Source: Massospora cicadina (Eukaryota; Entomophthoromycota; Entomophthoromycetes; Entomophthorales; Entomophthoraceae). Taken from it: a stretch of 64,000 nucleotides of DNA. This document shows positions 644 to 61,594 of the stretch, piece after piece. The DNA is taken from positions 1 through 64,000 of the forward strand of contig JAKSZP010017439.1 in assembly GCA_022478985.1 (NCBI GenBank). Direction: 5' to 3'. The first letter of the stretch is position 1. Every line of letters begins with the position of its first letter. The notes beneath the pieces were generated by a model. The model did no database searches. It saw only the letters and a program-made list of their open reading frames with translations, and was not told where the DNA came from. Position numbers and translations under genes: made by a program.

Positions 644-1074
644 ATATTTTATTTATTTTTATAAATACAGCTACTTTTTGCTGTTCCGTTTCTTCTTTGC
701 TATCAAAACCTACTCCTCTCAATCGCCCATTTCACTTATATATGTCAGCTTCAGGCGATACTGTTTCTCATTGCTTGGGTCATTCTATTCCGCTGATTCT
801 CCTTAAATTTGACTTGTTATTCTTAATCCTCTGTCGCCCTATTTGTAGGTTATTTTTTTTAGTACTAGATGGTACCTATTTGTAGGTTATTTACTTTGTA
901 TTTGTTGAATGTTGACATCGCCTTATCGCCTTATTGCCTAATATAGAGGCCATCCAATAAAATAATTACATCCAATAAAGACCCGTTGTATTTAATATTG
1001 CCTCATCTCGAGGCACTCAAATAATCACAACTGATACCATGCTCAGCGGATCCCACCTGGCTATCACACGATTA
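644..1074 (-). other. Non-coding stretch upstream of the gag-like frame
   Basis: No gene is visible. Read on the minus strand it holds a TATA-like box (CATATATAAGTG, about 738-749) some 100 bp before the gag-like start, as expected for an LTR or 5' UTR. A TGGTATCAG word on the minus strand (1036-1044) resembles a primer-binding site for initiator Met tRNA, but a 9-base match is weak evidence. The LINE-tail micro-insertion at 856-874 lies here. Confidence 0.25.
838..892 (-). repeat. LINE-tail micro-insertion 1 with target duplication
   Basis: The 18-bp word CCTATTTGTAGGTTATTT occurs at 838-855 and again at 875-892. Between the copies sit only about 19 bases (856-874), which on the minus strand read TACCATCTAGTACTA plus an A run. 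This matches the last bases of the LINE at 33542-39996. A duplicated target, an A tail and a 3'-end core are the hallmarks of target-primed reverse transcription, with essentially the whole element missing. The exact boundary in the T run is ambiguous by a few bases. Confidence 0.8.
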
Positions 1075-2399
1075 TTGTCCAGTCATATCAAAATCATGAC
1101 AAAAGCATTCTGCATATTTTGGGTGAACATTATGAAGATGGCCTAATGCATCAGTCAAAGATAAATTGAGATGTGCTTCAACTCCTTTATCTTGTTTGCA
1201 ACGTTGAAACTTTTTTTCTGATGTGTTCCATGTGTAGTATGTTAACAATTTAGAGTAAAGTAGCATCTTTACAAACATATTATCCCTGAACAATGAGGAA
1301 AATGCAGTTAACGATGTTAGAAGTTAAACAATGCTTTTTACTGTGCATTTTCTGCTGTGAAGTATACATGCTGTCCATTTTGAAGGTGCACTGCCAAATT
1401 TACAACTGTTGGATGTCATATATGGATTTGAAATGATAAAATGTGCCATACTGCTTCTTTACTACAAATGTAGCATCCAGTTGATATCAGTTGATTTCAT
1501 TGATAGATGCAGCTGCATTTTCTACTTTAAAACTGTCATATCGCTTCTTTTGTTGACATGTTTACAAATGTAATTGATCAATGATACTAAATTTCAAAAC
1601 TTGACATTGATGTGTGCTTTATCAATTTCCTTTTGAGTAACAGTGAATAAGGTACAATTCAACAATTATTAGCTTCAACATTATTGTTTCATACTTTTAA
1701 AGTAAAGGACTGTCACCATCTTCACCTAAACATCAGCAATAGAGTGGATATCCATCATTTCTAGTAATAGTCTTGGTATGTAAGTCTATTGGGTATTGTT
1801 TTGTGCATTTCCCATCAGACATGCATGGTGCATTGTTGTTGTGTAAGCCACATGGACCATGAATCATGTTTTTAGTGATGACTTTAAATAAGTATGTATT
1901 AATATTGATTTTGGGAATTTCTTTAAGATAACTTGATCATTTTAATCTTGTATGACTTTTTTGATCAAACAGATCAAAATGTGTGCATATGGAAATACTA
2001 TTTTTTTCCATTTAATATAATAGATCAAACATTGTGTCTCTCCAAAACATTTTGCTTGATAATGAAATCTATTAAAGATTTCAATTTTTTAAGAACACAC
2101 ACGCAGACATATCATGACAATCCATTAATGATTTTAACTTAACAAAAGTTCCTTATCTCATCCCATGTAGGATTGCATGTGAATCTAATAAACAAATCTG
2201 GGCGGTCATATGCGTGAAAATATGTAATTGCATCTTGTGCATATTCATGCATGTTCAGTGAACTCCCTGTAAATGTGGCTGATAGTATGACCATACCCTT
2301 CAATTTATAGGGATTCACATTGCCATCAATAACAAATGCATCACATAAAAGAATGTATACTTTGTAATGCAACTTGGTTTGATCTAATCAAATGTAGAG
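1075..2399 (-). pseudogene. Helitron Rep domain, degraded block
   Basis: Helitron Rep proteins nick and join DNA during rolling-circle transposition. In frame pieces this block carries typical conserved strings: DAFVIDGNVN, MHEYAQDAITYF, RPDLFIRFTCNPTWDEIRN, KNMIHGPCG and APCMSDGKCTKQYP. Next comes the tyrosine region INYICKHVNKRSD (about 1537-1581), then TYYTWNTSEKKFQR and VHPKYAECF near 1100. The expected HUH site reads FPYAHIL (about 1975-1995), with the first His replaced by Tyr. The second catalytic Tyr of the Y2 motif appears as His. With several stops and frameshifts it is certainly inactive. A 5-bp target duplication (TAGAG, 2395-2399) marks where the element at 2400 entered. Confidence 0.88.
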
Positions 2400-2552
2400 T
2401 GTAACAAGTGGTTTTTTCCTGCATGCCACAAAGAGATTGGGTATTACAAGCCAGGTCACTGACCACATCCTGGATAAGCCTGCAGAGACCCATCCTGGAA
2501 CCCATGCCATGTTTGGATGTCATGCATATTCTTAAATGACGGTCCCAGTAAC

Positions 2553-3705
2553 TGTAAGTCCAGGGGAACGTCCCCTATGCCTAGATCGTGCGCTCTTTCC
2601 ATTTCCAAATAAAAAGGGGCCAAAGAGGGCGGCTGTACCCCTCATCACCCAGGGTGACCTCTCCCACATGGTAGATGAGCGCTGGGTAACAGTCTTCGCT
2701 CTTCAGATTCCTCCCCCAATACACTTGCTCAACTCAGTCGAACTGGTCAGCCCAATTAAGGAAATCTATGCTGAGATCACTGAATCAATGTTGTAGGGTC
2801 TGAGACCAATGGAATCAAAGTCAGAAGATTGGAAAATACATTCCAAAAAAGGGACAAATGTCAAATTAATGGCCAGAATCACAGATGGTTTCAACTCAGT
2901 CACCAATATGATCATTGACGCCAACCCCCTCCCAAAATTGATGGGGGTGATCCCAAAATGCCAATGGTATCTTCAGAAACCATTGCTGACAGTTCAAAAC
3001 CCTGATCCAGCAAATCAGGAGTTGAAGCTGACATAACTCATTTGACCAAACAAATGGCTCAGCAACTGGGCACAGGTGGGTTGGGCATCCCAAATCCATT
3101 TACCACCAATTAGGACCACCCCTACATGGGGTGGCCTTAGGGATTTCCTGCTGCTCGTCAATCCAGACCTGTTGCACTAACTGATGGAAATGCAGTTAAG
3201 CCTCAGTTCAGGAATTTGAGGTCAAACTGACAGCAACTTGGCCTGCCACCAAATCCTTCAATGTCAGTTCCAATTGAAATTATCTGCCCCATTCCCTAAA
3301 AATTCGCTGGGTTAGGTGAATTTGAGGGACATGATCCCTGCTTGGACTCACCACAATTGAACACTATTTAATCACTTGCCTTGCACTAAGAAAATTGTTG
3401 GTCAATTTTCTTTCTTATTAATAATAAAAAATCCTTTCCCCAATTCTAGTTTTTTACGTTGAAAAACAAACCGCCTTTTCTACCAGTATTCCAACACCCC
3501 TCAGGGTTTATGGCCATGTTCATCTAGTATTTCACTATGTGTCTATGTGAGATTATGGCTCATATGCAATTATTGGCGGAACTCCTTTCTAGTTCCATAG
3601 CCGTTGTACTAGCAGCAGTGCCTCTGGCATTCTGATTTGCCGTTTGGGTGCTTCAGCACTCAGGTTGGCAGACCAGTCTAAAAATAACTTACTGTTTGCC
3701 TGACA
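2553..3705 (+). repeat. 5' LTR of chromovirus C
   Basis: Starts TGTAAGTCCAGGGGAACG and ends CTGACA, matching 7461-8611 throughout. Preceded by target duplication GTAAC. The short frames inside it are LTR sequence, not genes. Confidence 0.93.
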
Positions 3706-4380
3706 TAATCAACCAACCATTATTCCTAACCATTTACGCCTCTCTCGTTGATATTGGCGCAGCAATGGCCCCTTCTCTGCAGCTGAACCAGGTTGTGAAG
3801 CAATTCTTTCTCTGGCCATGTTAGCCTAGTACCACTCAAAATGTCCAATCCACATACCATAGTTGCCGCGGCCATTGTGTCCATGTCAGTATGCTCTGAC
3901 AATCCAACTTGTGAAGGGCTTACTCCCACTATGAACTTAGTGGTTTCCCCCGACTCTACTACCATCTCTTCTGTAACGCTGGATTCAACTACAGCTGCCA
4001 ATAAAGAGAACTTCACTTACTTAGTACTGCCCATGAAGATTAGTGTCAGGTCCCATCACGTTTCATTTGAGGCTTTGGTGGATACAGGAGCTGTGGGCAA
4101 TTTTATTAGTGAACTAGGCCAACAATTGGAGCTCAATCTGGATGTAGGTCCTTTGGTAATGGTTGCTTCTTCAGCCTCCCAGACCTCATATCTAGTTAAT
4201 CGCCAGTTTCTTTCTCAGTACATCAGTTTAGCTTTTGTGATTGGTTCTCAGCAATGCCAAACTTGGTGTTTCCAGTTATCTTGGGAGTTGGATGGGGGCG
4301 CCAACAGCATGTCAAGATTCATCTGGAGTCATATATGTTGTCATTTGCCAATGATCAAACGGAGGGAGAATTTCCCTTAG
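3706..4380 (+). pseudogene. Gag zinc-knuckle remnant and aspartic protease of chromovirus C
   Basis: Only about 130 bp separate the 5' LTR from the protease frame, so nearly all of gag has been lost. Around 3732-3790 the plus strand reads YWRSNGPFSAA with a preceding stop, which looks like a CCHC zinc knuckle that has lost its Cys and His residues. The frame from 3841 contains the aspartic protease signature VSFEALVDTGAVGNFIS (about 4065-4115), with the catalytic DTG intact. Retropepsins of this kind cleave the Gag-Pol polyprotein as dimers. The protein then drifts out of frame near 4250, where another frame (4254-4526) continues toward RT. Confidence 0.75.
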
Positions 4381-4429
4381 TTAATACCCTTAAGAAAACA
4401 CAAGGTTTCAGCTTCATTACTTCCCTCGT

Positions 4430-5430
4430 TTCCCCTTCTGTCCTTCCATCTGATTTTCCTGAAGAATTGATGCGCTATCAGAGTATCTTTGATTCTGAGA
4501 AGGCGGCTTCCTTCCCCCTCACATGAAATTTGACTTTGGATTTTAAACAATGGTACAGTTGGTGAACATCAACTGCCCTTTGTATCCATACACGGCAGAA
4601 GAGGAGGCTGCTCTTAACACCTGGTTAGACGATATGCTTAAGAAAGGATGGTTGTTTAAGGAGATGTTACCAATTGCCTCCCCCATCGTTTTTGCCAAGA
4701 AGGCTGATGGTTCTCTCAGTCCCTACGTGGATTATGGTCACCTAAATAAAATTACAGTGAGCAATCCCTACCCTTTACCCCTTGAGCAGACTAAAAATTC
4801 AAGTGATTGCAAAGTCTCAAGTGTTCTCCAATCTTGCTCTCGTCTATGCCTTTAACCAAATAAGAGTAATGGAAGGTCAAGAATGGCTTACTGCAATTTG
4901 TACCAAATGAGGCATCTTTCAGTTCCAGTATTGCCCTTTAGTATGAAGAATGCGCCAGCCACCTTTCAAAGAATGATTGATAGTGTGCTGGGCGACCTCC
5001 AGTTTACATGCACAATCACATATATTGACAATATCTTGGTTCATTACCCAACTCCCAAACAACATACTAAAGACTTGGAAGAGGTCAGGCTGCTTTGCAC
5101 AAGACGTTCCTGTTTGACAAGCCTTCAAAATGTGAGTTTTATAAGGAGGAAGTTACCTTTCTTGGGAACCTGGTCCTAAAAGATGGTTATGCGATTCCAC
5201 TAAACAAGTTAGATACCATCTGGAAGTGGCCGACTCCAACAATCCAAAAACAATTATGGAGTTTCTTGGGTACCATTATTTTCCTAAAGAAATTTTCCCT
5301 GACCCTTTCCCAAATAGCTGATACGCTCCACCCCCTCACGGGTAAAAATGTGCCTTTCTGTTGGACCCCCAAGTGCCAGCAGGCGTTTGAGTCCATTATA
5401 AAGTATTCTTATCACCCCCTATACTAAAAC
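4430..5430 (+). pseudogene. Reverse transcriptase of chromovirus C
   Basis: The RT is spread over frames 4254-4526, 4550-4855, 4883-5179 and 5095-5427. Visible motifs are a DFPEELMRYQSIFDSEKA-like linker, SPIVFAKKADGSLSPYVDY with LNKITVSNPYPLP (fingers and palm), MKNAPATFQRMIDSVLGD, and the catalytic box ITYIDNILV near 5020-5045. The last should be Y-[IV]-D-D, but the second Asp is Asn, so polymerase activity would be lost even without the frameshifts. The connection segment (SKCEFYKEEVTFLG, WTPKCQQAFESI) leads directly into RNase H. Confidence 0.9.
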
Positions 5431-5769: not shown

Positions 5770-7152
5770 ATGAAAGGTGCATTAAATGTGCAACCCAACT
5801 TCCTTAGTTGCAACCTGGCCCATTGCTCCACAGACTTGGAGGAAGTAGACCTGGTTACTGTGGTATCCACCACCCAAATTCTATCTATTGTCACGCCTGT
5901 GGTTGCCTCAGTAGAGTTAGCTCCTGATGCTCCGCTTATTTCATGGGTTTTGGCAGCTCAGATGTCCTGCCCCAAAGGAGTGGAGTTACTTGATCAATTA
6001 TCCCTTCAAACCCAAAAACATTCCCTGTATTCCTTGGTGTAGGGTCTCATCTATTTTAGGTCATGGGTTTGGGTTCCTTCTCTCCTTAGAGCTGAGGTGT
6101 TTTGAGCGCATCATGACCCTCCCACAATCGGCCATCTGGGCAACAAGAAATGCATCAAATTGATCAAGTGGACTTATAACTGATCGGGTTTAACTAAGGA
6201 TTTTCCAGCCTGGATCGCCGATTGCATTACCTGTGCATGAGCCAAGTCAGACTGCTCAGGAAGAAATGGCCTCCTACATTCCTTACAACAGGCGGAGGGT
6301 CCATGGACATAGGTGTCCGTGAGTTTTATTATCAAATTCCCCTGTTCTAATGGGTTTACGGTGATGATGGTGGTGGTCAATCATTTCACCAAATTTTCCC
6401 TATTTATTCCCTGTGCTTCCGCAATCACATAAAAAGAAACCACTTGTCTTTTTGTACGCCATGTGTTCTCTATGCTTGGTCTCCCACAGGAGATTATCAG
6501 TGACCATGGGCCCCAATTTACAGTGCAGTTCTGGAATGAGCTTTTAACAATCTTAAAAATCACCCCCTGCAATTCCGCCGCATACCATCCCCAGTACAAC
6601 GGACAAACCTAGCAGGTTAACCAGATTTTGGAACAGTAATTGCGTTGTTACATGTCAGCCGCACAAGATACCTGGGCCAACGACCTTCCTCTCACCTAAT
6701 TTGCCTATAATAACGGTACTCATGCTTCTATGGGGTTTTCTCCTATGAAACAACGTTGAATTATAATCCCTCTTTTGGTAGGTCCCTGTCTACGTCCAGA
6801 GGTTCCTGCTGCCGCAGATCACGTTGAGCACATCTGGTATACCCAGTACTTAGTGCGGGAGCACCTCACAAAGACTATCAATAATTATAAATGGTTTGCG
6901 GATCAAAAATGGCTTCCTGGCCACAATATAATGGTGGGCTCTCACGTTATGTTAGATACTTGCCATCTGCGGATGCAGATACCTTCCCATAAGTTTGCAA
7001 GCAAGCGTTCAGGTCCCCACCTGGTGGAGGAAGACTTGGGCAATGGTGCTTTCTGGCTAAAACAGCCAACATATTGGAAACAGCACCCCATCTCCCATGT
7101 GTCTCAGTTGTCCCCAATCAAGGGATTGTTCTCGCCAAACCTGAATCAATAG
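5770..7152 (+). pseudogene. Integrase of chromovirus C
   Basis: Pieces in several frames give the whole enzyme. The zinc-binding region (HLGNKKCIKL, CITCAXAKSDC) lies at about 6130-6260. The catalytic core shows VVVNHFTKFSLFIP (about 6370-6415), LPQEIISDHGPQFT (about 6480-6525) and AAYHPQYNGQ with ILEQ (about 6580-6640). The first catalytic Asp seems replaced by Asn, while the second Asp and the Glu are kept. The C-terminal GPY/F-type region is the frame 6775-7152 (GSHVMLDTCHL, RSGPHLVEEDLGNGAFWL, HVSQLSP). Stops interrupt the core at least five times. Confidence 0.87.
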
Positions 7153-8871: not shown

Positions 8872-8913
8872 TTACCCTAAGCTCTTTTTTTAGTACTCTT
8901 ACCCTAAGCTCTT
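8872..8913 (-). repeat. LINE-tail micro-insertion 2 with target duplication
   Basis: TTACCCTAAGCTCTT is present at 8872-8886 and 8899-8913. The 12 bases between them read GAGTACTAAAAA on the minus strand, the last bases of the LINE tail. The sister LTR of the host element (about 13771-13785) has a single copy of the target word and no insert, so the empty site is seen directly. Confidence 0.85.
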
Positions 8914-13373: not shown

Positions 13374-14001
13374 TGTAACAAGTGGGTTTGTGCCAGTATG
13401 CTACAAAGTAATTGTCTAGTACAAGCCAGGTCACTGACCACATCACAGATAAACCCGCAGAGACTCAACCCTGAACTGCGCATCATATCTAGATGTCACG
13501 ACATATTATTGAACGGCAGTCACAGCAACACTGCATACCAACAGAAGGGTCTGTCCCCAGGACAGCGCTGAGAATGAGACCAATGCTTGTTTTAGATCGT
13601 TAGTTGAGCTCATCCTCCAGATCTTGGTTTTCTAAATATATATAATAAACGTATCTTATAATCAATAAGATATGCTAGTGATGTTTATTGAATATTTAGT
13701 ATTTTTGTAGAAAGAGACTAGATTCTTAGTTATCTCCTTTAATATAGCACTACAAACCCTTAACTAAGCTCATTTACCCTAAACTCTCAAGCAGCGACCA
13801 GATCATTGTCTGAAAAGGCTCAATATCCCATTTGATCATAATTTGAAAAATTCAAGATGCCAGTGTTGCATTCGTTGTAGCCTCAATTCACAATATGTTC
13901 TTCTGCCACTTTCATATTATCTAAACTAATCTTTAATTTCTTGGTACACTGAGTTTGCCAACTATGTCAATGTGCAGACAGACTGCGCCTAATCCTTTAC
14001 A
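13374..14001 (-). repeat. Right (5') LTR of chromovirus B
   Basis: Begins TGTAACAAGTGGG and ends TTTACA. It aligns with 2400-2552 plus 8612-9133 and contains the site where C inserted in the other copy (CAGCAACACTGC, uninterrupted here). Followed by TAGAA, the diverged target duplication. Confidence 0.87.
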
Positions 14002-17200: not shown

Positions 17201-17800
17201 TGTAACAAATGGAAACGTTCCAGTTTCCAACTGCCATTATTGCAACTAGTTTGGTGCCAACTGACAACACCAAAATATTCCAACTTAAAGTTGGATGCAT
17301 TGGGACCATCTAGTACTAAAAAAAGTTGGATGCAAAAGTTGACTGATAATTGATTTGGTTCAACTATGAGAAAACACACTCAAATATAAGACCAAAAGAC
17401 AAACAGGTAAGCAAGGTGGCAAAGAAACCCTGAAATCAACCTTATCTTCTTCACAAAAAATGATTGTCAAGTGGAGTTGATTGAGGAGTGGATAAAATTA
17501 TCAACATGGTAAGGACAGCCCATAGGCTAAAGACAAAAACTGCTCCAGGGAAGGGTAAACTCAAGAGAAAAAGTTCTGGAGTGAGCTTCAGAATTTGTGG
17601 CCCAACCTTTTAAGGTTGCCCTTTTGGGGTTTTCACCCAAACTATTCTCTAGGCTACCACAAGCTTAAAGAATGGCTACGATGAGGCACAGCCCAGCGCC
17701 CAAAATAAACCACAACAAAATTTTTTCATCAATTTGACTTAGGATTTGGAAATTCAAACCTGAGTCAAGCTACAATTATCAAACTAATCTGATCAGTACA
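17201..17800 (-). repeat. Left (3') LTR of element F
   Basis: Aligns with the reassembled right LTR through GTAACAAATG, the ATTATTGCAACT block, the AACAGGTAAG block near 17400 and the TTTGACTTAGGAT block near 17735. It carries a LINE-tail micro-insertion at 17300-17321 that the right LTR lacks. Confidence 0.85.
17287..17334 (+). repeat. LINE-tail micro-insertion 3 with target duplication
   Basis: AAAGTTGGATGCA occurs at 17287-17299 and 17322-17334. The 22 bases between are TTGGGACCATCTAGTACTA plus A residues, the longest version of the core seen in the plus direction. The right LTR of the same element (about 18465-18480) has the uninterrupted site AAAGTTGGCTGCA, so the empty allele is visible within the window. 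Confidence 0.88.
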
Positions 17801-25402: not shown

Positions 25403-25408
25403 GGTGCG

Positions 25409-33520: not shown

Positions 33521-33567
33521 AGCGACTAAATTCAGTCTTTTTTTATAGTACTAGATGGTCCCAACCC
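33521..33567 (-). other. 3' end and A-run tail of LINE B with its target duplication
   Basis: On the minus strand the element ends GGGACCATCTAGTACTAT plus an A run, then continues into the 21-bp target copy 33521-33541, which is repeated with one mismatch at 39997-40017. This is the same 3' core found in the five micro-insertions of the window, with TACTAT where those have TACTA. Confidence 0.9.
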
Positions 33568-33784
33568 AAGGAGGGGATTCATCGATGTTTATTGAATTAC
33601 GCCTGGGCTCCTAAGAGCCTGAGGCGAGGGAAGGGGAGGGAGGAGGCATCGAGAAAGGGAGGGGGTTTGCGCGCCAGAGCCGTGCTGCAGTGACAACTGA
33701 GCGGGGGAGGGTTGGCGACATAGTGCAGACCTTCAGGGCCATCTCAAAGTGTACCCAAAAGTGGGTGATCATGTGTGGAAGGGT

Positions 33785-36700
33785 CTACACCTGCTGGTCA
33801 AAGGCAGCACGAAGGAAGGATTTATGGATGGTCCAGATGGCTGTGGCATAGGCGAGGACACGGAGGGGTCGGTGACAACCAGGCAATGTCTGCTCAAACA
33901 TGAGGTCCTGCACAGGGTGTCCAGACCAGGGCTGAGCATGGAGGAGCGCGCAGGCCTTTGGCCAAAATGCGGCGACACCTGGACAAGTGAAAAAACGATG
34001 GAGGTGGGAGTCAATAGGCTCCACACAGCGGGGGGGCAGCTTTGGTGCTGGAAGGTAGGGCCAGTCCGGTCCCCTGTCCTGTATGAACAGTGGAGCACCC
34101 TCCATAAGGTGTTGGACACCTTTGCTGACAGGATGGGGTGATAGACGTCCTTCCACAATTCCTTAAGGTCAAATCTCACGGAGGGAGGGAGGAGCTCAAG
34201 GAGTCTTGGGCGGATGGGAGGATGATCTTGGGGGTTGAGGCGAGTTGTGACAACTTGTCCATTGTGCACAATTGCATGGCGACGGGGGCTGAGGCCAGGG
34301 CCTTCCCTTCTATATGGGAAGGCATGGTGGATCCGCGCGCCTACTCGTTTCAGGGCAAGGAGAGCCTGGTTCCAGTAGGGGGATAAAGATGGTTTTAGGC
34401 GATGGCCTGGGTGGTTTGTGAGCCACTCCCCTAATGAGGTCAGAGATGCTCTAGGAAGACCCAGAGCTGCTGACACTGACTGGCGGAGGGTGGGCGCCCA
34501 TTGGGGCATGGGGGTCGCGTCCCAGCAGACAATTGGCCATAGGAACTTCAGGAAGATTGTGGTGGCGTGGGATCGCGTGTCCAGAAGCCCTAGGCCCCCT
34601 TCATTGCAGGGTCGGGCAATGGTTGAGAGGGCCATTGGTGGATGATTTGAGCCCCAGATCCAACAGCGGAGGAGTACATTGAGCCGCCTATAAAAGGCAT
34701 CTGTGAATAGGCAGAGGTGCGCTAGGAACCAGACTTTGGAGAGGAGGAACACATTGGCCATCAGAGCTCGACCCTGGGGGGTGATGTGCCACCGGTTCCA
34801 GCTGGCAATCCTGGAGTTAACTGCTGCAAGGAGCAAGTCCTCATTGTCTTTTAGCGCAACTCCTTGTTGGTTGGTGAGAACGCCCAGGTGACGGAAGGTA
34901 CCGCGCTCAGGTTCAATACCAAATGGTGGGGGAAGGTGGGGGAGCCGACCTGTACAACTGTTGTCTTGGAGGTGTTGACCATGGCGTTGGACGCCTTGGT
35001 GTACCTCTCAATGGTCACAGCAGCGAGGGCAACATCCCCAGGGCAGCCAAATGCAATGGCAGTGTCATCTGCAAATGCCATGGTGCGTGTGGGGGCTTTA
35101 CCTGGGACCAGAATCCCTGTTAGCTAGTCCTGTAAGGAGGCCAAGAGGGGGTCAAGGGTGATGTTAAAAAGGATAGGGCTCAGGGGGTCCCCTTGCCGGA
35201 GACCTTGTCCAACTGGTACTGCCACTGTAAAACCCATTGGCGCCAGGACTCTGGTGTGGAGCTGGTCATAGAGCGCTGATATCCAGCGCCTAGATGCGGG
35301 TGGGAGATGGAAGCGGGCCAGGGAAGCATCAATGTGCTTCCAGGCTACCCAATCATATGCTTTCTCCATATCCAGGAGAGCCACAAAGCCATTCACCTTA
35401 CGAGAGTTAGCAGTCAAAGTCACGTGAAGGTCATTATAATTGTCCCATAACGACCTCCCCGGAATAAAACCGTGCTGGGATGGGGAGAGGCGAGGTGACA
35501 CCCATTTAGTGATGCAGTTGGCCAGAAGCTTCGTGAAGAGCTTGTGGTCTGTGTTGATCAACGCTATGGGCGCCAGTTCGCCAGGTTCTCACAGTCTGAC
35601 TTCTTGTGAATGAGGGTCGTGATTGAGCCTCTGGAGTCGGGGAGGACCTCGCCATTCACCAAGAGTGCAGCGAAGAGGTCGCGGAGGGTTCTGGCTATCA
35701 CTGCAGGTTCCAGAAGGTACACCTCAAAGGGTATTCCGTCTGGGCCTGGGGCTTTAAGCCGTGGGGATTTCAGAAAGGTTTCCATCACCTCCTGGATGGA
35801 AATAGGCGCCAGTAGAGACTCATCAGCCCGTGGGTCAATGGGCGGCTCTGGAGCCCGCCACAGGAAGTCTTGGATGTCCGATGGGTCCACCTGGGTGGCA
35901 TGGAAGAGGCTGGAGTAGAAGCGGTGTAGTTCCTGCGTGATTTCCTCCTTATCTGAAGTGGTTGTAAAGCCAATCTTCAGTGCATTAATATCCTGCGCTG
36001 TTGACCGGGTTTTCTGTTTCTGAAAGAAGAAGCGGGTGGGGCTTTCCCATTGAGCATAGTAATGAGATGTTGTAAAGTTTGCTGCCCGTTCTTCCTGCAG
36101 TGTGAGCTCCAAGTTGAGTGCTTCCTGCGCCGCTTCCCAGTCTTCCAACCATCTGGGAGAGGGCGAAGGCTGGCAGTTTCGCTCTAGATGTCTGATTCTG
36201 GCTTCCGCCCTTTTGACTCTGGCGAGAGCTGCAGTCATCTGGGCTTTGGCACAGTTGTAAGCAACGCGGGTGATGCCCTCCTTGGTCACCGCCCATCTAG
36301 CCTTGTGGTCAAGCAGGTGGGGTGGGGGGAGGTGAGAGTCTCCCAGATGATCATAGACAGCTTCTCCTTAGTGAAGGGGTTGTTGAGAAGAGCTGGGGCA
36401 ACCCTAGGCCAGAACCTACGCGACGGTCTAAGTGTGGTGGTGAGGACAACGGTGAGTGACCTGTGATCACTCAGATGGTTGTCACGAGAGATGGGAGAGG
36501 AGACGCGGCCAATTAGCAGGGGGCCAATCAGTGCCATAACTATGCGTGACGCTGACTGGAAAGCTCCTCCATCATACTGAATCCTAGTCATGCAACCTAG
36601 GCCAGACGCGGAGGGTGGAAGCGCATCTATAAAGCCACTCAGGCGAAGGAAATCCTGGAGGCGACTTGATCCAGGGCGTTCCTTTGCTGCAGGGGGAGTA

Positions 36701-37143
36701 AGAGTCACGGACGCGACTTATGGTTGTGTTGAAATCTCCTAAGAGGACTGTATTCCGTGGGGAGATTCGTTGGAGAAGCTCTTCCAAGAGCCGATTTTGC
36801 TCCTGACCTGCATTAGGCAGGTAGATGCTTGCAGCGAAGAAGGAGAAGTCAGGAGTGGTGAGTTTGGACAGTATGAGGCGGCCACCTAGATATTATGAAA
36901 AAGAATGGGTTTTAACCCGGGATTCAAAACAATAAGGGCGGCATGGTTTGTCCAGAAGGAGTTGCCTCCAAACTGTTCATTCCATGCAGATTGTTCTTGG
37001 GGGAGGATATGGGGCTCCTGGACAGCAGCGATGTCAATTTGTGCTGACCTGAAGTTTCAGAGGAGGCGGGCTCTCCGCTTAAAGTCCCGCAACCCATTTG
37101 CGTTGATGGATTGCAGGGCCAGGGTGCTGCCATGGGGACTCAT
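33785..37143 (-). pseudogene. ORF2 of LINE B (endonuclease and reverse transcriptase)
   Basis: Begins MSPHGSTLALQSINANGLRD at 37143. The endonuclease continues across a stop with IDIAAVQEPHI, NTVLLGDFNTTISRVRDSY (about 36710-36770) and NHLSDHRSLTVV. RT covers 35564-36289 (LKAPGPDGIPFEVY, LIHKKSD, LANWRP), 35124-35561 (HGFIPGRSLWDNYNDLH, FVALLDMEKAYDWVAW, LRQGDPLSPILFN) and 34851-35081 (MAFADDTAIAFG catalytic box). The long frame 33769-34836 is the thumb and C-terminal part (SKVWFLAHLCLF, NEGGLGLLDTRSH). After a frameshift the Cys/His end is HLHRFFTCPGVAAFWPKA. The protein ends at about 33785. Confidence 0.93.
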
Positions 37144-39903
37144 AGCTGTTCCCCTCCATGTCCTGGGGGGGTTGCCAGCGCTTAAACCTGCTGCTGTGAG
37201 GCGGCTAGTTTTGAGTCCTTTAGCTTGACTATTAGCTGCAATCCGTGAGGAGCGTCGAGGGTTCTGAGGGGAAGGAGAGGGTGGGGGGGGGGAGGACCCA
37301 GTAAGCCAGCCTAGGATGCTGCCCCCACTCCGTTGCAGGGGAAGGACCTGAGGGTGCTCAATGGTGACCTCCGCGGTGTCCCCATTTGATGAGTCTGAGT
37401 CCATATTCACTTCCTCTAACACTGCAAAGGATCCGCGCGAAATGGACTGTGGGGTTGGGGTAGGACTCTTTGAGGTGGCACTTCTACCGCAGGCCGCAGG
37501 TTGCCAGTCCATGCTGGTGGGCATAGCTCCATTGGGAGCTGAGGGTTGATGCGATAAATCGCTGGTGGAGGTTGGTGGGGGTGCCGCGGAGCCCTGAGTG
37601 GGGTGGCTGACGAGGGGCACCCTGTGGGAGATGCCTTGCGCTTGGTGAGAGAGGGAGTTGACTCTGGGAGATTAGAGGGGGTGCCCATTGGAAGGGGGGC
37701 ATGAGCGCGAAGGTATCCCATACCAATAGTGGGGTTAGCTGTTTCAACTGCTAGGCGTAAGGCCTCAGGGGACAGGTCTTGAACGGGAACCCATTGTGTG
37801 GGTTGTAGAATTGCTGCTGCAGCCACGTGGGATCGTTTTTGGCCTGGTTTAGGCCCCTGGGTGGTGGCTAAGAGGGCTTGTTTTCGAGCTGTGCAGCCAC
37901 TATATAAGTGTCCAAGGGCGTTACACCATGAACACCGGGGGCGCGCCTGATCAGGGTCGACAAAAAGATCTCAGGGCATGCCCCAACTACCACCACACGA
38001 GGAATAATCTCAATGTATCGGGATACAGTGGGGAGGGGATGAACGACGCCCTAGCAGTGCGAGCTTTTTGAGTGGGAGCATAGTAAGAGGGGACGCTAAA
38101 GTCCACTGAAAGAACAGACCTAAACTCCATTAAACCACGATGGAGTGCCAGTTTAAGAGACTCAGGATCAACAGTCGTTGGTAGGTTGGAAAAAGTAACC
38201 CATGAAATTTTCTCCAGGTGAGAGCGTGTGTGGGAGATGTGAAGAGATCCGCGTGGAATAATGACCTGGAGGGTGGCAGCATGGTCAGCAAGGGCAGCTT
38301 CAGTGAAGCCCACATCGATGTAGTGGCCCTCCATTGATTCATGGATGGTGGTGTTAATTGGGAATGTCTCCGCAATCGCTGCAAAGTATGAGAAGTAATC
38401 CTCTGTATAGAATTCAACAGGGTTATGCCCATAATAAAGGCAAATTGTGTGGAGAGGGTTGAGTGAGGTAGAGCTTTTTGCGCTCTAGTTTCGGCCCATT
38501 TCTTCTTAACATCAGCAATAAACGCCACTTCACGTGGCTCAGCCTTGATTAGCGTTGGTGCCAGAGGTTTTTGCCACGCCCCAGTGGCTCCTTTGGTACA
38601 TTTGTGTTTGCTTTGGGCTGCAGTTGCGGGTTGAGTGTGAGCTGGTGGTTTGGACAAGTTTGCGGAGTTCCCTTGTTGCTGGAATGTTACAGCAGTTGCT
38701 GGCGTCATATTAAATTGAGGGGCAGTTTTTTGGGCCTCGCTAAATTGGGGAGGCCCATCCAGATTGGAATTAACTCCAGCCAATTGGGAGGAGGGAGATG
38801 TTTCATCACCATCTCAATATATTTGGGTAAATTCAGCCCGAGTATTTGCTGTGATTTCGTGGGCAAAATTCACTGGCTGATTGGTGAATTGGTCATTTTC
38901 AGCATATGGAGATAAAGTGCCGACTTGAGAAGTGCCAATTATGAGGCTTAAATGGGACGGGTGAGATTGGAACTGGTGTGAAGTCCCAAAATCTGAACCA
39001 TTTAAATCCCCATTGGGAAGAGTAGATTGTCCCAATTTGGTGCTTAGTGAACCAGAATGTGTGGCTAATCCAACCTTACATCCGAGGGTTTGGGGGCCAG
39101 GTGATTGTTGGGCCTCGCTAAATTGGGGAGTCCCATCTAGATTGGAATTAACTCCAGCCAATTGGGAGGAGGGCGATGTTTCATCACCATCCCAATCTAT
39201 TTGGGTAAATTCAGCCTGAGTATTTGCTGTGATTTCATGGGCAAAACTCATTGGCTGATTGGTGAATTGGTTGTTTTCAGCATATTGAGATAAAGTGCCG
39301 ACTTGAGAAGTGCCAATTACGGGGTTTAAATGGGATGGGTGAGATTGGAACTGGTGTGAAGTTCCAAAATCCAAACCATTTTTATCCTCATTGGGAAGAG
39401 TAGATTGTCCCAATTTGGTGCTTAGTGAACCAGAATGTGCAGCAAATCCAACCTTACATCTGAGGATTTGGGGGCCCGGTAGCTGGGTATCGCCCCTCAT
39501 GGAGGGAGCCAGAAACACGGCATCAGCAATAATAGATGAGACTGAATTAGCTGACACATTGGGGGAGGTGAATGCCTGGATGGGCTGAGTTGCATTCAAC
39601 TGAGCAGACGCCATTAAAACAGTGTGGGTGATGGCCTCCTTGGTTGGAGGGGGCCCAGCGGGTTGGTGGGAGGCAGCGCACACAGAGCTGTTAGGCGTGC
39701 AGGTTTCAGAAATGTGTGATCAGGTGAACTGGCGCTAGTTGGAGTAGCTCCAGGTTGGGGGGTGGTGCCTGCTTTCATGGCTGCTGCTTGAGAGCGGGTG
39801 ATTCTGGTTGACCCTGAGGTGGGTAACCAAGGGTTGCTTCGTTAGGGGTGATGCTGGCTCGTTTGGCATAGCCTGCGGGTTCTTTTGCGGGGTTTCCCGC
39901 CAT
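37144..39903 (-). pseudogene. ORF1 of LINE B (zinc knuckle, internal repeats)
   Basis: The ATG at 39903 follows a 93-bp leader (MAGNPAKEPAGYAKRAS). After stops, frame 38814-39683 holds a polar Ser/Thr/Gln-rich region with two copies of a 126-residue unit. Frames 38130-38783 and 37987-38334 carry an RNA-binding-like region (ISWVTFSNLPTTVDPESLK), comparable to FLTFDFLPTTV in LINE A. A zinc knuckle CSWCNALGHLYSGC lies near 37900-37945. The Pro-rich end (37144-37620) runs without a stop into the ORF2 start in the same frame. ORF1 proteins bind the element RNA. Confidence 0.88.
38730..39485 (-). repeat. 378-bp tandem duplication in ORF1 of LINE B
   Basis: Segments 38730-39107 and 39108-39485 are similar over their full length, with a period of 378 bp (126 codons). 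Recurring strings are HSGSLSTKLGQSTLPN, DFGTSHQFQSHPSHL, IGTSQVGTLS and FAHEITANT. The copies differ by scattered substitutions and keep the frame, so the unit was duplicated while the protein was still coding. Confidence 0.9.
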
Positions 39904-40754
39904 ATTTGCTAATAGTTTTCGTAAATCTCTTTAGTGGAGCTAAATTTCAGGCTGAATTGATTTTCGAAAAGTGATGCTTAGCAGAAAGAGATTAATAGCG
40001 ACTAAGTTCAGTCTTTTCGTTTTAGAGAAAGGGCATTCATAGTAGTGTATCTTGGCAAATAAAATAAGGAATTTTGAAGGGTTAAAAGCACTTTAGCTAT
40101 AAAAATTGAGAAAATACACAGCATTGAATGATAGAATGTACTCAATTAATATTTATAAGAGTCTTGAATAAAGCTCAAGGCTTGTTAAGTCTTATGAAAT
40201 TCTTCTAGTTGTAATTGTTGAGCTTAGGTGATTTAAAAATTAGTAATACTTAGTCATTGCACTTAGGCTTTTAAATTATATAAAGAGTGGTAATCACGCT
40301 TAGATTTATAAATTGTAATAATTTGGTTTTTGTGCCATATTTGGAAGGCCTATTTATAGGCCTGATATTCTGGTTTTATCTGATTTAAATTTTTGACGAT
40401 GGAAAATGGGCCAATGACAGTTTCTTTAGATACTTGAACTTTCTATGTAATATGGTTAAATTACTCCGTTTGCTCAGAGATTCTGCCATTTTTGGATTTA
40501 CTATAAATAGGGTTTACCTTTGATTCCTATCACTGAGGTGATCTGACATTAATGTCAGATTGGTTCCTGAAAAATGCTTTATTTTTTTTGAAGATCAGAA
40601 ACCTCAATTTTTTAAAGGCATATAATGTCATTTATTCATTAATTGATTAAGCACCAATTCTATGGGCCCACCTAAAATGCAATTACTCTTAATATCTTGT
40701 TATTATTTTTTAATTAAAACAATGTGGTGGTCAGGAATATCCTGTACCATCACA

Positions 40755-41453
40755 TAACCCCCCCTTTGTGAAAAAAGTTCCTGATTTTCCCTCAAAAACT
40801 TTTGATTAGGCGCTTCATCGCTAAAGCTGAGAGAAAACCAGGTGTGAGGTTTTTAAACATTTGCAGAAGCCGTGATGGATTAACCTTAGCTTCATGGGCC
40901 AGTGAGCGGAATGAATGAGCATTTTCCTCTACTAAACCTTATCTGAGACGTCAACAACAAGGTTGACCAAGTGGAATCAAAGCCCTTATTGGGACATAAA
41001 ACTCAATCAATAAACTGAAGAAAATCATCAATAATATTAGGCAAAGAATTTTATTTGTCCAAAAGAGTTTTGAGTCAAGTGGCGGGTTTCTTAGGTAACT
41101 CATAAAAACTTGAGAAAAATGATCACCAAATGTATAGTCCCTTCCCCGCCCTAGTCAGGTGGCCTTGAAAATGCACCTTGTCAAAGACCTCATGAATTTT
41201 TCCAAGGCCATGGTACCAGCAGGGGTTGAAAAGAACTAACATGAGTTGAAACTGCTTCATGGTTAGCAGGCACTGGAATCCACACCTTCATTATCCAATA
41301 AATTTCATACAGCAGAAACACCAATGAAGATGATCATCAGAATTTTGGGGGATGCTGATACTAGGCAGGTAAGAGGGTTTGAACAGGCACCACTATAGAA
41401 GCTCTCACCAAGGACCAAAAAGGTGTGAGAATTCTGTATAATTTTCAACGGAA
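40755..41453 (-). pseudogene. Remnant internal region of element E
   Basis: At the low end the minus strand reads FLRENQELFSQRGG into the polypurine tract, consistent with the last residues of a chromodomain-bearing integrase. Next to the 5' LTR the minus strand reads TTCCGTTGAAAATTATA, similar to the primer-site word of the chromovirus at 2400-14001. The rest has no sustained frame or recognisable motif. Gag and most of pol are gone. Confidence 0.55.
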
Positions 41454-42422
41454 TGGTTCTTTCCAGTAGTGGACAAAGGCGTTAGGTAACACCAACCAGG
41501 TAATAGTTCACAACCCATAAAGCACCCCAGTTAAGGTCTGGATGCCCAAATACCACTATTGTGGGGCTTAATTAAAACTTGGAGAGTAGTTAAGATGATG
41601 CTCAACCCTAACAGCGCTCCTTGACCCCAGGTAAGAGCAAGGAGGGATTCCACCAAAAGACTAGGTTCAATCTCTTGGTTCAGAATAAAGGCGTTCATAA
41701 TAGTGTATCATGTCAAATAGAATCAGGAAAATGAAGGGTTCCCAAAGGCAAGTTTATTTATCAAAAACTGCGGAATTTACACAGAGCTGAAAGATGAATG
41801 TACTCAATTCTTATTTAAAGAAGTCATGAATAATAATTAAGACCTGTTAAGTCATATGAAAACTATCAAAGCTGTATTTGTTGAGCTTAAGTGACCTAAA
41901 AATATTTGATACTTAGTCATTGCACTTAAGGAATTTAACTTATACAATAAGTGGTAATCTCACTAAGAATTATAGAAATTTTAATAATTTGTTTTTAAGT
42001 ACCATATTTTGAAGGCCTATATAAAGGCCTAATCTACTTGTTTCATCTGAGTTAAATTTTTGATAATGGAAAATGGGCCAATGTCAGTTTCTTTAGATAC
42101 TTGAACTTTCTATTTAAAATGATTAAATTACTCCGTTTTCCCAAAAATTTTGTTATTTAGAAACCCCAATAGGTTAGGGGTTGCCCTCAGTTTCTGTCAT
42201 TGAGGTGATCTGATATTTATATCAGATTATTCATAAAAAATGCTTTGTTTTTTTGAAGTTTGGATCCGTCAATTCCTCAAGAGCATATAATGGCCCTCAT
42301 TCATTAATAGAGTAAGCACTAATTCTGTGGGACCAACTAAAATGCAATTACCATTAATTTATTTGGTTATTGATGCATCTAACAAGAACAATATGATGGT
42401 CAGAAATATCTGTACCATCACA
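41454..42422 (-). repeat. Right (5') LTR of element E
   Basis: Intact copy of 969 bp, TGGTTCTTTCCAG to CCATCACA. It shows the site where LINE B inserted in the left LTR as an uninterrupted sequence near 41650-41675. Confidence 0.88.
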
Positions 42423-42529
42423 TCAAGTGCCAAAGCCAAATTATTACAAGAATTTTAAATGATTTGACTTAGGATACAGAAAATAAACATAAATCAAATA
42501 TCAATGATCAAACTAATCCAATAAGTACA
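42423..42529 (-). repeat. Right LTR of element F, last piece
   Basis: Matches 17690-17800 (shared TTTGACTTAGGAT, ATCAAACTAATC and AGTACA blocks) and ends the element. Confidence 0.78.
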
Positions 42530-47264: not shown

Positions 47265-48600
47265 AGGTTCATCCTTTCCCCCAAACTGGGTCCTGGGTAC
47301 TTAAACCTACCAGTTTTCCATGGTTCAGAGGTCCTTTTTTCAGACTTAACCATCTAAATTGGTTCAGAGGTACTTTTTGGACTTGACCTAATCATCAGGA
47401 AATGACCAACTTAATGGTTCATCGGTCCTTTGGGAACTATTTTATTTTTTTTCAATCCAACGCTTTAGATACTTAGTGTGGACTCAATTTACAACCCTTC
47501 CATCTAAGAGATTCTTGATGGAATAAGCATCAGTTGCTAACTTGGCAGTTACTTTGAACGGACCCAACCACAATGCATCTAATTTGTTTCTTCATCCAAA
47601 ACCATGCGTATTGAAATAGGTGACTCTTTCCCCTATTTGATATTCTTCTAATGCCAGTTAGTTTTTTTCATCCGTTGATTTTGCTCATATCCTTTTCTTC
47701 AAGTTTGTATCAAATGCTTGAGATTGTATATCAATCAGGATACTCATCAGTTAGTTCAAGTTTTGCTCAGTACTCATCCCCGATGTAGGTTCCACTACCA
47801 AATATAATATCAGCGGCAACGCGGCCTTTCTTCCATATAGTAATTCAATTGGCGTCTTTCCCGTTGCCATATGATGACTAATATTGTAGGCGAATGTCAC
47901 CAAACTCAGGTACATTCCCAACGCGGAAGTTCTCCCTGCAACTAACTTCCTCAGCATCATGGCCAGCGTCCCATTGACCCATTTTACCAGTCCATTCATC
48001 TCCTGCAGGTATGGTACTGACATGAATCCTTGGATCCCCATTATTTCATTTAGCCTCAGGATCACATGAGATGTGAAGTATGTCCCATTTTCGCTCAGTA
48101 GGACTTGCGGACATCCATGCCAGTATACTACTTGATCCAGGATGAATCTCGTAGTACTGGTAGCATCTACTCTGGTTAGGGCCTTCATTTCGACCCATCT
48201 CATCAGATGGTTGATGGCAACTATGATGTACTTGACTCCCCTTGTGCTCATTGCCAACAGTCCCATCATGTCAATGGACATCATGTGCCATGCAAATCCA
48301 GGGCGGACCAGTCAGTATCCAGTTGTGTTCTTGTGTGGTTTATGCAGCTGGCACTCCACACAACAAGCCAGATGATCTGCGACATTGCAGTTAATTGAAT
48401 TCTAGTAATAATACTGGCGAATATGGTTGGTTGTTTTCCTCAGGCTTTGTGCCCAACAACCTTGTGAGCTGCTTGTACTATTGCTGATCTTTCCAATGGT
48501 TTCAGGAATAATAGCTGCTTCCCATTGATCGTCTTGAATACTTGTCCTTCCATAGTCTCAGTGTTTTCCATTGCTTTTCAAAGTGCACCTTGGATTTCTC
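47265..48600 (-). pseudogene. Integrase of element H
   Basis: The zinc-binding region ends with CNVADHLACCVECQLHKPHK (about 48335-48400). The intact frame 47751-48284 covers the core: MMSIDMMGLLAMSTRG, CPQVLLSENGTYFTSH and NGLVKWVNGTLAMML. Compared with the usual D-D-E triad the second Asp is Glu (SEN instead of SDN) and the Glu is Lys (VKW instead of VER), so it is inactive. The C-terminal part reads LWLGPFKVTAKLATDAYS and continues to about 47265. Confidence 0.9.
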
Positions 48601-55227: not shown

Positions 55228-56064
55228 TGTCAGAAATTTTTTTCTTCTTTAAGGGAGAAGAATGCTTTGGGTACAGAATAGTCCTAATGATGGGGGAGTC
55301 CACCCATGCACCAACTCAAATTTGGTGCTTGTTGGACAATTACCTGTCCAAGTTTATGATAATGATGTTTCAAATTTCAATAACTATAAAATCGGCCCAA
55401 AAGCCCTGGTCAATTATCAGTGGAATCCTTAGAGCTGGGGTAGTACTTCCAACCCCTCCTCTGGTCAAATAACTCTATGATTAAGGGCAGGGCTACACCA
55501 AGCCTGCGGCGAAATCAAGGGAGTTGCACTGAGGGTTCTCCCCATCCTGATTATAATTTAATTCAAGCATCTACGCTGGGACCACCTCCTTTTATAGACG
55601 TGGAGGGGATCCCAAAAGGGGCAACTAATTTCTCTTATGGTGATTGCCTAAAATATATAGGATTTTTGCATCATTGACTTGTAATACCTACTCTTAATCC
55701 TCTATTAGCTGTTCTGGATAAAGCGATGCTATTTTTGAGAGCTTTGATAAGTCGAACACCCACATTTTCTAAATAGGCTTGAAGCTAATAATGAATTTAT
55801 GCATATCTTGCTTCAATCCTTGAGTTAATTAAATACTAAGCAGCGAGGTCAATATAGGGCTCGCTTCTTGATACTCTTGCTGCCAGTAATAAAAAATTTA
55901 TTAGATCCAACCTTTATCTTAACTTATAAAAGTAGATAATTTAACTAGTGGTCACAAAACCTCTTCATATATATTGGCAGTTGAGATAGATACTTATCCT
56001 GCCAGATTGTTGAAATCAGGGGCTAATTAGCACCTTCAAGCTTACAAAAACCCTGACTCCAACA
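55228..56064 (+). repeat. 5' LTR of element I
   Basis: Aligns with 60733-61594, for example through the shared words AAGCCCTGGTCAATTATCAG and TTATAGACGTGGAGGGGATC. It has the uninterrupted site where micro-insertion 5 entered the other LTR (about 55521-55540). Confidence 0.92.
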
Positions 56065-58683: not shown

Positions 58684-58735
58684 AAGTCCCTTATAGTTTT
58701 TTTTTAGTACTAGATGGTCCCAAGTCCCTTATAGT
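58684..58735 (-). repeat. LINE-tail micro-insertion 4 with target duplication
   Basis: AAGTCCCTTATAGT stands at 58684-58697 and again at 58722-58735. The 24 bases between read GGGACCATCTAGTACTA plus an A run on the minus strand. It lies in the pol region of element I, and here no sister copy exists to show the empty site. Confidence 0.85.
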
Positions 58736-59339
58736 CTTATCCAATAAAGATCTCAACAAGAACATATACTCTTGCCTGGCAGGATATCCATTTTCCGCTT
58801 TGACTTTACATTAAACCACTTCTGGGCACAATTCAAAAAATGGCCTGATTCAGTGGATGCTAAGATGGTATTCCTTTTATGCTTCAGATGAGGTAGTGAT
58901 TAAGCCAGGTGAACAACGAGTAATTGACACAAAGATCATGCTCCAAATCCACACAACTGCTTGTTGCACCTCGTAAGTATTGAGGGCGTTAGCCCCTTTT
59001 GAGCCTCGGTTATTGCCTGGTATACTAGACCCAGCCTACCAGAGGCCTATTAATCTTCTGTTGGGGATCCTTACCAGCAAGGACCTCATTGGAAGAAAAC
59101 ACCAGGAGATTATCAGAGGCTTATTAAGCCCTGTAGAGGACATTGAACAAATTCACTTCATTAGCTCTACGTTGAATATGGGCTTGCCAACGGATAACCT
59201 GTTATGTACCTTACCCAATGTCCATACCTCAGATGATCAGACCCCAGATGAACTTGATAAAGTTCATACTTTATTGGATGGATTTAGTGAAATTTTCTTT
59301 AATTTGGATAATGATTATGACCACATGAAGGACTGAAGC

Positions 59340-60230: not shown

Positions 60231-60299
60231 TCTGATCCACTTCACTGGGTTAATTCCTGCCCAGTGCTTTTATGGCCTACTATATTTAGTTTATCACTG

Positions 60300-60645
60300 T
60301 ATCTTAACAATGTCCCCATTCCATGTTCTGTATGGGAGGGAACCAGGGATACCCGCCATTTTAGCTAAAGATGTTTTCTCCTCTAAAGTTGAGGAGCCTG
60401 AGAAAGCCATGAGAAAATTACTCAACGCATCATTCAGCTTTAATCCGAGGCTTTTTAACCTAGCTAAACAGTTTCAAAGGAGGGACAAACTGCCAATGAG
60501 CTTAGGACTCCCCTATCTTCATTCAAAGTGTCTGACCTGGTCTTATACTACCATATCCGCATCACTTCTAGAAGCGGTAAGTTTAGATAAATTTGGGAAA
60601 GTCCCTTCACTTTCACTTACAAGAGAGGGAATGAGTATTCTATAA
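60300..60645 (+). pseudogene. Integrase C-terminal end of element I
   Basis: The frame 60310-60645 starts MSPFHVLYGREPGIPAILAK, the well-known segment that follows the integrase catalytic core (SPxxLLYGRxP). It then passes KVEEPEKAMRKLLNASFSFN. The catalytic core and the zinc-binding part upstream are deleted, so this fragment lies about 70 bp after the RT remnants. It precedes the 3' LTR by about 90 bp. Confidence 0.82.
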
Positions 60646-60732
60646 AGTCTTTGGATACAAGTATTACCATAAACAGAGTACAAGGACGCATTTTACGCCC
60701 CTATTCTTCCCCCAACATTCTTGAAGGGGTAA

Positions 60733-61594
60733 TGTTGGACAATCGCCTTTTTGTTTAAGGGAGAAGAATGCTTTGGGTGCAAATAGTCCTTATGATGGGG
60801 AGTTCACCCGCTCACCAACTCAAATTTAGTGTTTGTCGAATAAATTACCTGCCCAAATTTATAATAATCTATAAAAATTTTAATAAGGGTAAAATTGGCC
60901 CAAAAGCCCTGGTCAATTATCAGTGGAATCCTTAGAACTGGGGTAGTACTTCCAACCCCCTCCTCTGGTCAAATAACTCTATGATTAAAGGCAGGGCTAC
61001 ACCAAGCCTGCGGCGAAATCAAGGGAGTTGCACTGAGAGTACTAAAAAAAGGGAGTTGCACTGAGGATCCTCCCCATCCTGATTATAATTTGATTCGTGC
61101 ACCTACACTCCAAAACACCCCTTTTATAGACGTGGAGGGGATCCCAAAAAAGGCAACTAATTTCTCTTATGTTGATTGCCTAAAATATATAAGATTTTTG
61201 CATCATGGACTTGTAATACCTATTATCAACACTCCATCAGCCGTTCCTGGTAAAGCAATGCTAGTTTTGAGAGCGTTGATAGGTCAAACACCCACATTTT
61301 ATAAAAAGGATTGAAGCTAATAATGAATTTACGCCTATCTTGCTTTAAGCCTTGAGTTATTTAAATACTAGCCAGCGAGATTAATATAGGGTTCACTTCT
61401 TGACCCTCTCGCTGCCACTAATAAAAATTCATAAAATTCACTTTTTTTAACTTATAAGAGTAGTATTTTAACTAGTGGGCACAAAACCCCCTTCATTTAT
61501 TTTGGAAGTTGAGATAAATAATTTTCCTGCCAGATTGTTGAAATAAGGGGCTAATTAGCACCTTCAAGCTTACAATTAAAGCCTGAAACCAACA
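60733..61594 (+). repeat. 3' LTR of element I
   Basis: Begins TGTTGGACAATCGCC right after the purine tract CTTGAAGGGGTAA, ends CCAACA, and is followed by CCATC. It contains micro-insertion 5. Confidence 0.92.
61021..61065 (+). repeat. LINE-tail micro-insertion 5 with target duplication
   Basis: AAGGGAGTTGCACTGAG is present at 61021-61037 and 61049-61065. Only 11 bases, AGTACTAAAAA, lie between. The matching position of the 5' LTR has a single AAGGGAGTTGCACTGAG and no insert. The event therefore happened after the element had integrated. Confidence 0.9.

Follow-up and report, generated by a model that had tools for sequence, protein, structure and literature searches.

Stub and whole copies of a LINE in the genome of Massospora cicadina, with one stub class starting at a single nucleotide

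Introduction

It has long been asked what truncates copies of long interspersed nuclear elements (LINEs); the usual assumption is fall-off at random. Here we analyze a LINE of the fungus Massospora cicadina, LINE B, in a stretch of 64,000 nucleotides (GenBank assembly GCA_022478985.1, contig JAKSZP010017439.1, positions 1 to 64,000; the window) and in a genome search of 1,469,884,898 bases in 16,968 contigs. The window contains one full-length LINE B and five very short inserts of its 3′ tail. Copies of LINE B usually consist of only the last 7 to 45 letters of the element, often cut at one exact letter, and otherwise mostly of the whole of it, a pattern that ordinary ragged copying does not explain. 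For strain MCPNR19, the accessible part of the genome report gives 1.488 Gb in 19,694 scaffolds and 92% transposable elements (PMC9584336), and that of another study describes how LINEs expanded in M. cicadina following its burst of Ty3 (PMC11105155).

Short inserts and LINE B in the window

An earlier note on this DNA, made from the letters alone, had described five inserts with a shared core, each between direct repeats of 13–18 bp of its own. The motif AGTACTAAAAAAA is indeed present exactly five times in the window, at those five places (mean in shuffled sequence, 0.01), and identical direct repeats of 18, 15, 13, 14 and 17 bp flank the inserts. The features are listed below; duplications are unstranded, and the sequences of minus-strand inserts are given in the sense of the insert.

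838..855 and 875..892, target duplication of site 1, two identical copies
856..874, minus strand, micro-insert 1, class I, TACCATCTAGTACTAAAAA
8872..8886 and 8899..8913, target duplication of site 2, two identical copies
8887..8898, minus strand, micro-insert 2, class I, GAGTACTAAAAA
17287..17299 and 17322..17334, target duplication of site 3, two identical copies
17300..17321, plus strand, micro-insert 3, class I, TTGGGACCATCTAGTACTAAAA
58684..58697 and 58722..58735, target duplication of site 4, two identical copies
58698..58721, minus strand, micro-insert 4, class I, GGGACCATCTAGTACTAAAAAAAA
61021..61037 and 61049..61065, target duplication of site 5, two identical copies
61038..61048, plus strand, micro-insert 5, class I, AGTACTAAAAA

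The full core that the note had ascribed to all five, ACCATCTAGTACTA, is found in only three of them; the inserts at 8887 and 61038 have only AGTACTA, with one extra G at 8887. The window has a fourth full copy of the core at 33546, where the full-length LINE B has its 3′ end; the features of this element are as follows.

33542..39996, minus strand, LINE B, full-length, about 6.45 kb, frames broken in this copy, with a reverse transcriptase domain and an empty paralogue
33521..33541, target duplication of LINE B, 3′ side, 21 bp, one mismatch to 39997..40017
39997..40017, target duplication of LINE B, 5′ side, paired with 33521..33541
33588..33593, minus strand, AATAAA of LINE B, at the last A of which class II inserts elsewhere start (ACATCG...)
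33601..33625, minus strand, upstream hairpin by structure prediction, GCCTCAGGCTCTTAGGAGCCCAGGC
33554..33583, minus strand, terminal hairpin by structure prediction, GATG...CATC

The reverse transcriptase domain of LINE B matched RVT_1 (1.7e-21), and its top matches in the PDB were LINE-1 ORF2p, R2 and like enzymes. A weak APE-type fragment (Exo_endo_phos_2, 0.0019, below the Pfam cut-off) in broken frames may represent the endonuclease. The LINE B proteins were 93–94% alike to proteins of M. cicadina, and two LINE B fragments used as queries found no protein relatives outside Massospora. Viral contigs, among which records of this genome may be left out, gave 0 matches. A 378 bp tandem duplication lies in the 5′ half of the element (38730–39480). 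LINE B is inserted in a repeat whose empty paralogue is found at 41443–42423, and self-comparison of the window revealed no partial LINE B copy elsewhere in it.

The same self-comparison located empty sites for some of the micro-inserts. For the insert at 61038, a clean empty paralogue lies at 55447–55617, and for that at 8887 an insert-free one, about 70% identical, at 13613–13969; in these two cases the alignment gap equals the insert plus one copy of the duplication (28 and 27 bases, respectively). A paralogue of the site at 17300 matches the left half only, and none was found in the window for the inserts at 856 and 58698. The clean empty site of the insert at 61038 comes from the direct-repeat pair 55242–56064/60748–61594, and the paralogue at 55447–55617 and the insert site probably belong to the two long terminal repeats of one old element.

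In a blind scan, short inserts flanked by exact direct repeats of 12 bp or more were sought in the window and also in 210 kb from three other contigs, picked blind to the motif. Among the 31 pairs listed, 12 had an A or T run and eight of these 12 were tails of LINE B. The remaining four were a pair at 47321 and three with inserts of 75–113 bp. At 47321–47371, a 12 bp direct repeat surrounds an insert of 27 bp; this insert includes a T run but is not a LINE B tail, its target does not start with A's, and it possibly represents another family or chance.

Copy number and length classes

The exact 20-base core GGACCATCTAGTACTAAAAA occurs 21,382 times in the genome (10,672 + 10,710), and the backwards pattern 0 times. 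To describe the copies, 100 listed places carrying this core in contigs C1–C12 were all examined (L022–L109, referred to as the first 88, L122–L129 and L163–L166). Since the exact 20 bases were required, old or very short inserts are missed in this sample. For inserts in which the LINE part is shorter than 16 bases, the sources are limited to the window (856, 8887 and 61038), the sample of 210 kb and those few of the 100 copies in which the duplication overlaps the core; genome-wide totals of micro-inserts are thus lower bounds. Among the 100 copies, 15 are long and 85 are micro-insertions, no longer than about 55 bp, in line with the suggestion of the earlier note that such scars number tens of thousands. 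The 210 kb sample added four micro-insertions (L008, L014, L016 and L019), or roughly one per 50 kb on the basis of four events only.

The micro-insertions fall into two classes. Class I has about 7–30 bases of the LINE B 3′ end. Class II has about 42 bases plus A's and starts at a single nucleotide, ACATCG, at the edge of AATAAA. When length was expressed as the number of LINE bases on the 5′ side of the core's GG, the first 88 copies were distributed as follows.

0–10 bases: 47 copies
11–25 bases: 3 copies only (L042, L083 and L108)
26 bases: 15 copies (peak)
27–42 bases: 11 copies, mostly class II matching into the flank by chance, plus L032
56–58 bases, the end of the reference used: 12 copies

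Insert lengths therefore peak and do not taper, as the earlier note had expected of a separate class, and the size range of 55–400 bp is empty in these 88 copies. The long copies are mostly whole. There are 13 of them in the first 88, 12 of which were probed about 6.4 kb upstream for the LINE 5′ end, and 11 are full length, with 5′ ends at LINE positions 4–11. Across the 100 copies, 12 of the 15 long ones are full length, including L166, as judged from its marker distance of 6,379.

Genome-wide counts of 25-base markers, with up to two mismatches allowed, led to a similar picture: the LINE 5′ end was found 3,020 times and the stretch just 5′ of the class II boundary 3,388 times. An exact 5′ marker lies 6.0–7.1 kb upstream of at least 54 of the 91 listed exact 3′ markers (contigs C1–C255), a lower bound because the other 37 may have mismatched 5′ ends; the pairing drew on 91 of the 3′ places and 86 of the 5′ places, out of 100 listed for each. 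One of these 5′ places, on contig C171, was entered by its end coordinate; since no 3′ place is listed for C171, the pairing is unaffected. The distances in 48 of the 54 pairs are 6,333–6,393 or 6,003–6,014, one 378 bp tandem unit apart.

The 5′ end of class II

Class II inserts, with 26 bases 5′ of the GG, begin ACATCGATGAATCCCC. An additional 33 copies were picked for carrying this 16-mer in contigs C11–C26 (one of them, L132, is L166 of the 100). Eight were long and 25 short (6 of 20 and 2 of 13 were long). In 19 of the 25 short copies the duplication adjoins ACATCG or shares its A; the junction of L130 was read by eye, and no duplication was found for L161. Across L022–L166 there are 46 distinct short copies with the motif; in these, the LINE continued 5′ of this point by 0 bases in 31, by 1 in 10, by 2 in 4 and by 3 in 1. 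A comparison by hand showed that these counts are close to chance, given 29.7% A in the flanking bases.

The boundary was also apparent in exact counts over the whole genome. The sequence TCGATGAATCCCC, which starts TCGATG, occurs 7,012 times (backwards control, 8) and that starting ACATCG 6,720 times. Patterns extended further 5′ were found 2,237 times (AATAAACATCG...) and 1,833 times (GTAATTCAATAAACATCG...). Going 5′, the counts drop by 4% along three bases inside the boundary, by 67% where five bases span it, and by 18% along the seven bases that follow. The step of five bases therefore costs about 4,480 exact copies, a few hundred of which, by our estimate, may be due to mutation. The class II start, read from 33588 downward on the minus strand, also contains CATCGATGAA, which appears to equal a conserved stretch of 5.8S ribosomal RNA; the likeness may be due to chance.

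These results bear on ordinary 5′ truncation, by which the micro-inserts would be the short end of a smooth length series. A copy of 514 bp, with an apparent duplication of its own, and a copy starting at LINE position 243 (L032) exist, and the accessible part of a study of Anolis describes severely truncated CR1 copies under 50 bp (PMC5389967). The two LINE B copies show that ordinary truncation occurs and so speak against the account with three end points that is proposed below, as do the long copy L126, in which the LINE is absent at the expected 5′ place, and the 5′ marker, which is 11% rarer than the 3′ marker, a difference in which unequal decay of the two stretches may have a part. However, the range of 55–400 bp is empty in 88 copies, the counts of the two markers are near equal, and two-thirds of the copies are lost over five bases at one site, where smooth truncation already fails for class II. 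The truncation points are not spread along the element, and we rejected this explanation as very improbable. In L032 (5′ probe L113) a deletion was observed near the 3′ end, between LINE positions 6279 and 6396.

We consider even less credible that the stubs are deletion scars of former full-length copies instead of new insertions. Deletion would leave the duplications in place, but the same exact 42 bases would have to remain at thousands of unrelated sites, and a variable 7–30 bases at others, and the stubs are nearly always flush with the 5′ duplication.

A third possibility is a separate mini-retroposon, that is, a 42-nucleotide RNA with its own master gene and promoter that borrows the tail and enzyme of the LINE as a short interspersed nuclear element (SINE) does. 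The discrete 5′ end, high copy number and LINE-identical 3′ end would agree with it, and class II alone combines a discrete 5′ end with a LINE-matching 3′ end, as SINEs do. Nonetheless, class II includes CTTGGG as well as CTCAGG, the two 3′ variants that the long copies show, from which it follows that several LINE lineages feed this class, and this argues against a single master gene. In addition, the 42 bases lie wholly inside the LINE. A search of Rfam with the window (gathering score) and with one LINE 3′ end (E up to 5) returned no match, and thus neither a known structured RNA or ribozyme at the boundary nor an RNA polymerase III-type head (transfer RNA, 5S or 7SL), no separate scan for A and B boxes having been made. 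We regard a mini-retroposon of this kind as improbable.

The 5′ ends of full-length copies have another aspect. Extra bases precede the LINE start in 7 of 11 full-length copies, by our own reading, and seldom in class II, which suggests that the two kinds of 5′ end are formed differently. The earlier note had named a smooth length series as what would refute a separate class, and the lengths did not refute it; the note had foreseen neither the one-nucleotide boundary of class II nor the near-empty range between 55 bp and full length.

Insertion features common to all classes

Beyond the window, a duplication was detected in 76 of 82 short copies compared with 0 of 484 mismatched flank pairs, and in one of three short copies added later (L163), or 77 of the 85 micro-insertions. 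The shuffles, the mismatched flank pairs and the backwards-pattern control ruled out a composition artefact. The 12 probed long copies (11 full length) all have duplications of 14–21 bp and an A-rich tail. The classes compare as follows; two class II rows of the comparison (insert starts 55 and 71) look spurious, and its labels were not used for totals.

Class I, 52 rows: median duplication 16 bp; first target base A in 51; mismatch between duplication copies 1.6% per base
Class II, 26 rows: median duplication 17 bp; first target base A in 21; mismatch 2.5% per base
Long copies, 12 rows: median duplication 16.5 bp; first target base A in all 12; mismatch 2.4% per base

The mode of the A run is 7 in class I, class II and long copies. 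Owing to the similar mismatch rates, the three classes can be considered of similar age. Because they share the target motif, the duplication length and the A tail, all of them look like products of LINE B target-primed reverse transcription, and the action of LINE B's own enzyme is well supported. The earlier interpretation of the inserts, as 3′ tails of LINE B put in at nicks in A-rich targets, was thus borne out.

Microhomology at the class I junctions averaged 0.64, compared with 0.46 in shuffled junctions (p 0.08, 39 junctions). The excess, which joining driven by microhomology would produce, is not significant. In humans, about 80% of truncated L1 copies have microhomology at the 5′ junction, unlike full-length L1, according to the accessible part of that study (PMC2912911).

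Possible mechanism

We propose that the LINE B enzyme would nick A-leading targets and use the A tail of its own RNA for priming, as in LINEs, and that reverse transcription would end at three places: within the first 7–30 bases (class I), at the last A of AAUAAA (class II) and at the 5′ end of the RNA. Class II may arise when a discrete short 3′ RNA is copied to its end (run-off), the simplest candidate being LINE RNA that was shielded by the bound enzyme and the terminal hairpin and of which the rest was trimmed. For class I, either early release or a remnant of even smaller size may be responsible. The enzyme would be highly processive once beyond about 50 bases. We put the chance of this account, three endpoints with a short RNA template for class II, at about even. 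It is favored by the single-nucleotide 5′ end of class II and by the finding that both LINE 3′ variants give it; we also count in its favor that class I lacks a significant excess of microhomology, as do full-length rather than truncated human L1 copies in the text available to us (PMC2912911). More tentatively, and with a probability that we place a little short of even, an RNA of about 42 nucleotides, the LINE 3′ end cut or trimmed to ACAUCG, would itself be the mobile template, a minimal self-derived retroposon with 4,000–5,000 exact insertions. If this is true, the stubs of about 42 nucleotides document, in the genome, which piece of RNA the LINE enzyme protects.

Alternatively, synthesis may start on full-length LINE RNA, to the 3′ end of which the enzyme would remain bound, and abort. 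A stall in or before the terminal hairpin would produce class I, and a block at AAUAAA, due either to a modified base or to a bound protein (e.g., cleavage and polyadenylation factor), would produce class II; in each case the stub would be joined with a normal duplication. The class I 5′ ends lie mostly in the 3′ arm and loop of the predicted terminal hairpin or 3′ of it, and class II ends exactly at the edge of AATAAA. The hairpin pair plus tail is mildly stable (z −1.78), and Anolis L1 is described in the accessible part of its report as stopping early or being complete (PMC5389967). On the other hand, the one-nucleotide end of the motif-bearing class II copies is sharper than expected of pausing, and the class I junctions show no significant excess of microhomology. 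An abortive start is the strongest competing reading, to be taken seriously if rather doubtful, and for the class II ends we place the short template somewhat ahead of a road-block.

Several points weigh against the short-template account. A precise block by a protein or a modified base would give the same class II 5′ end. The class I ends are spread over many positions, which early release fits better than a fixed RNA. Taken alone, the predicted terminal hairpin does not exceed shuffled sequence in stability, and strong structure at the terminus was rejected as what causes the ends. The junctions of L151, L152, L154, L158 and L159 contain one or two extra bases, and some class II inserts carry a further A or two, or an odd base or two. 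Finally, eight of the 85 micro-insertions (L042, L045, L059, L104, L122, L125, L164 and L165), which were still counted as short, have no detectable duplication.

Comparison with known systems

LINE B resembles APE-type LINEs such as L1 in its reverse transcriptase, close to LINE-1 ORF2p, its A-leading target, the 14–21 bp duplications at full-length copies and the A tail. It differs from them in that the sampled copies are about 55 bp or less or mostly full length, in that one short class has a single-nucleotide 5′ end, and in its short and constant A run (mode 7). In Anolis carolinensis there are also many CR1 insertions under 50 bp, and L1 copies stop early or are complete; but CR1 truncation tapers with distance from the 3′ end, the early stops of L1 fall below 1 kb, and the accessible part of the report describes no fixed end (PMC5389967). 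The statement in the earlier note that no family of this kind had been described was consequently too strong. Very short LINE copies are already known, from Anolis CR1, and it is the nucleotide-exact class that looks new.

Two systems of Magnaporthe are also related. Mg-SINE is a short element with a LINE-like 3′ end that uses the machinery of the LINE MGL, as given in the available part of the source (PMC2104539). Class II differs in having no visible transfer RNA, 5S or other head and no Rfam match, all of its 42 bases being LINE. In the MINE chimeras, LINE reverse transcription leaves its template at preferred sites, according to the same part of that source (PMC2104539); the Massospora stub, in contrast, has nothing fused to its 5′ side and is joined straight to the target. 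New copies of the yeast LINE Zorro3 are mostly full length as well, and the accessible text on it mentions no micro-insertions (PMC1965478). Our literature search found no report of a LINE with nucleotide-exact stubs and a near-empty range from stub to full length, which is weak evidence of absence.

The tens of thousands of scars have a quantized outcome: a stub, an exact-ended stub or, mostly, the whole element. This pattern separates start from elongation in target-primed reverse transcription and supplies natural data on the contents of the first complex. With each scar come a private duplication, mostly of 13–20 bp, and some 10–50 bases, which repeat masking may well miss. As a consequence, LINE insertion rates derived from recognizable copies may be several-fold too low.

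Other repeats in the window

The remains of a second LINE, with a reverse transcriptase domain, occupy positions 24258–28921 on the plus strand. The blind scan detected no micro-insertion assignable to this LINE, the 3′ end of which was undefined. Three pairs of direct repeats that are 83–89% alike, 55242–56064/60748–61594, 44233–45383/52640–53785 and 2548–3705/7457–8611, look like the ends of old long terminal repeat elements.

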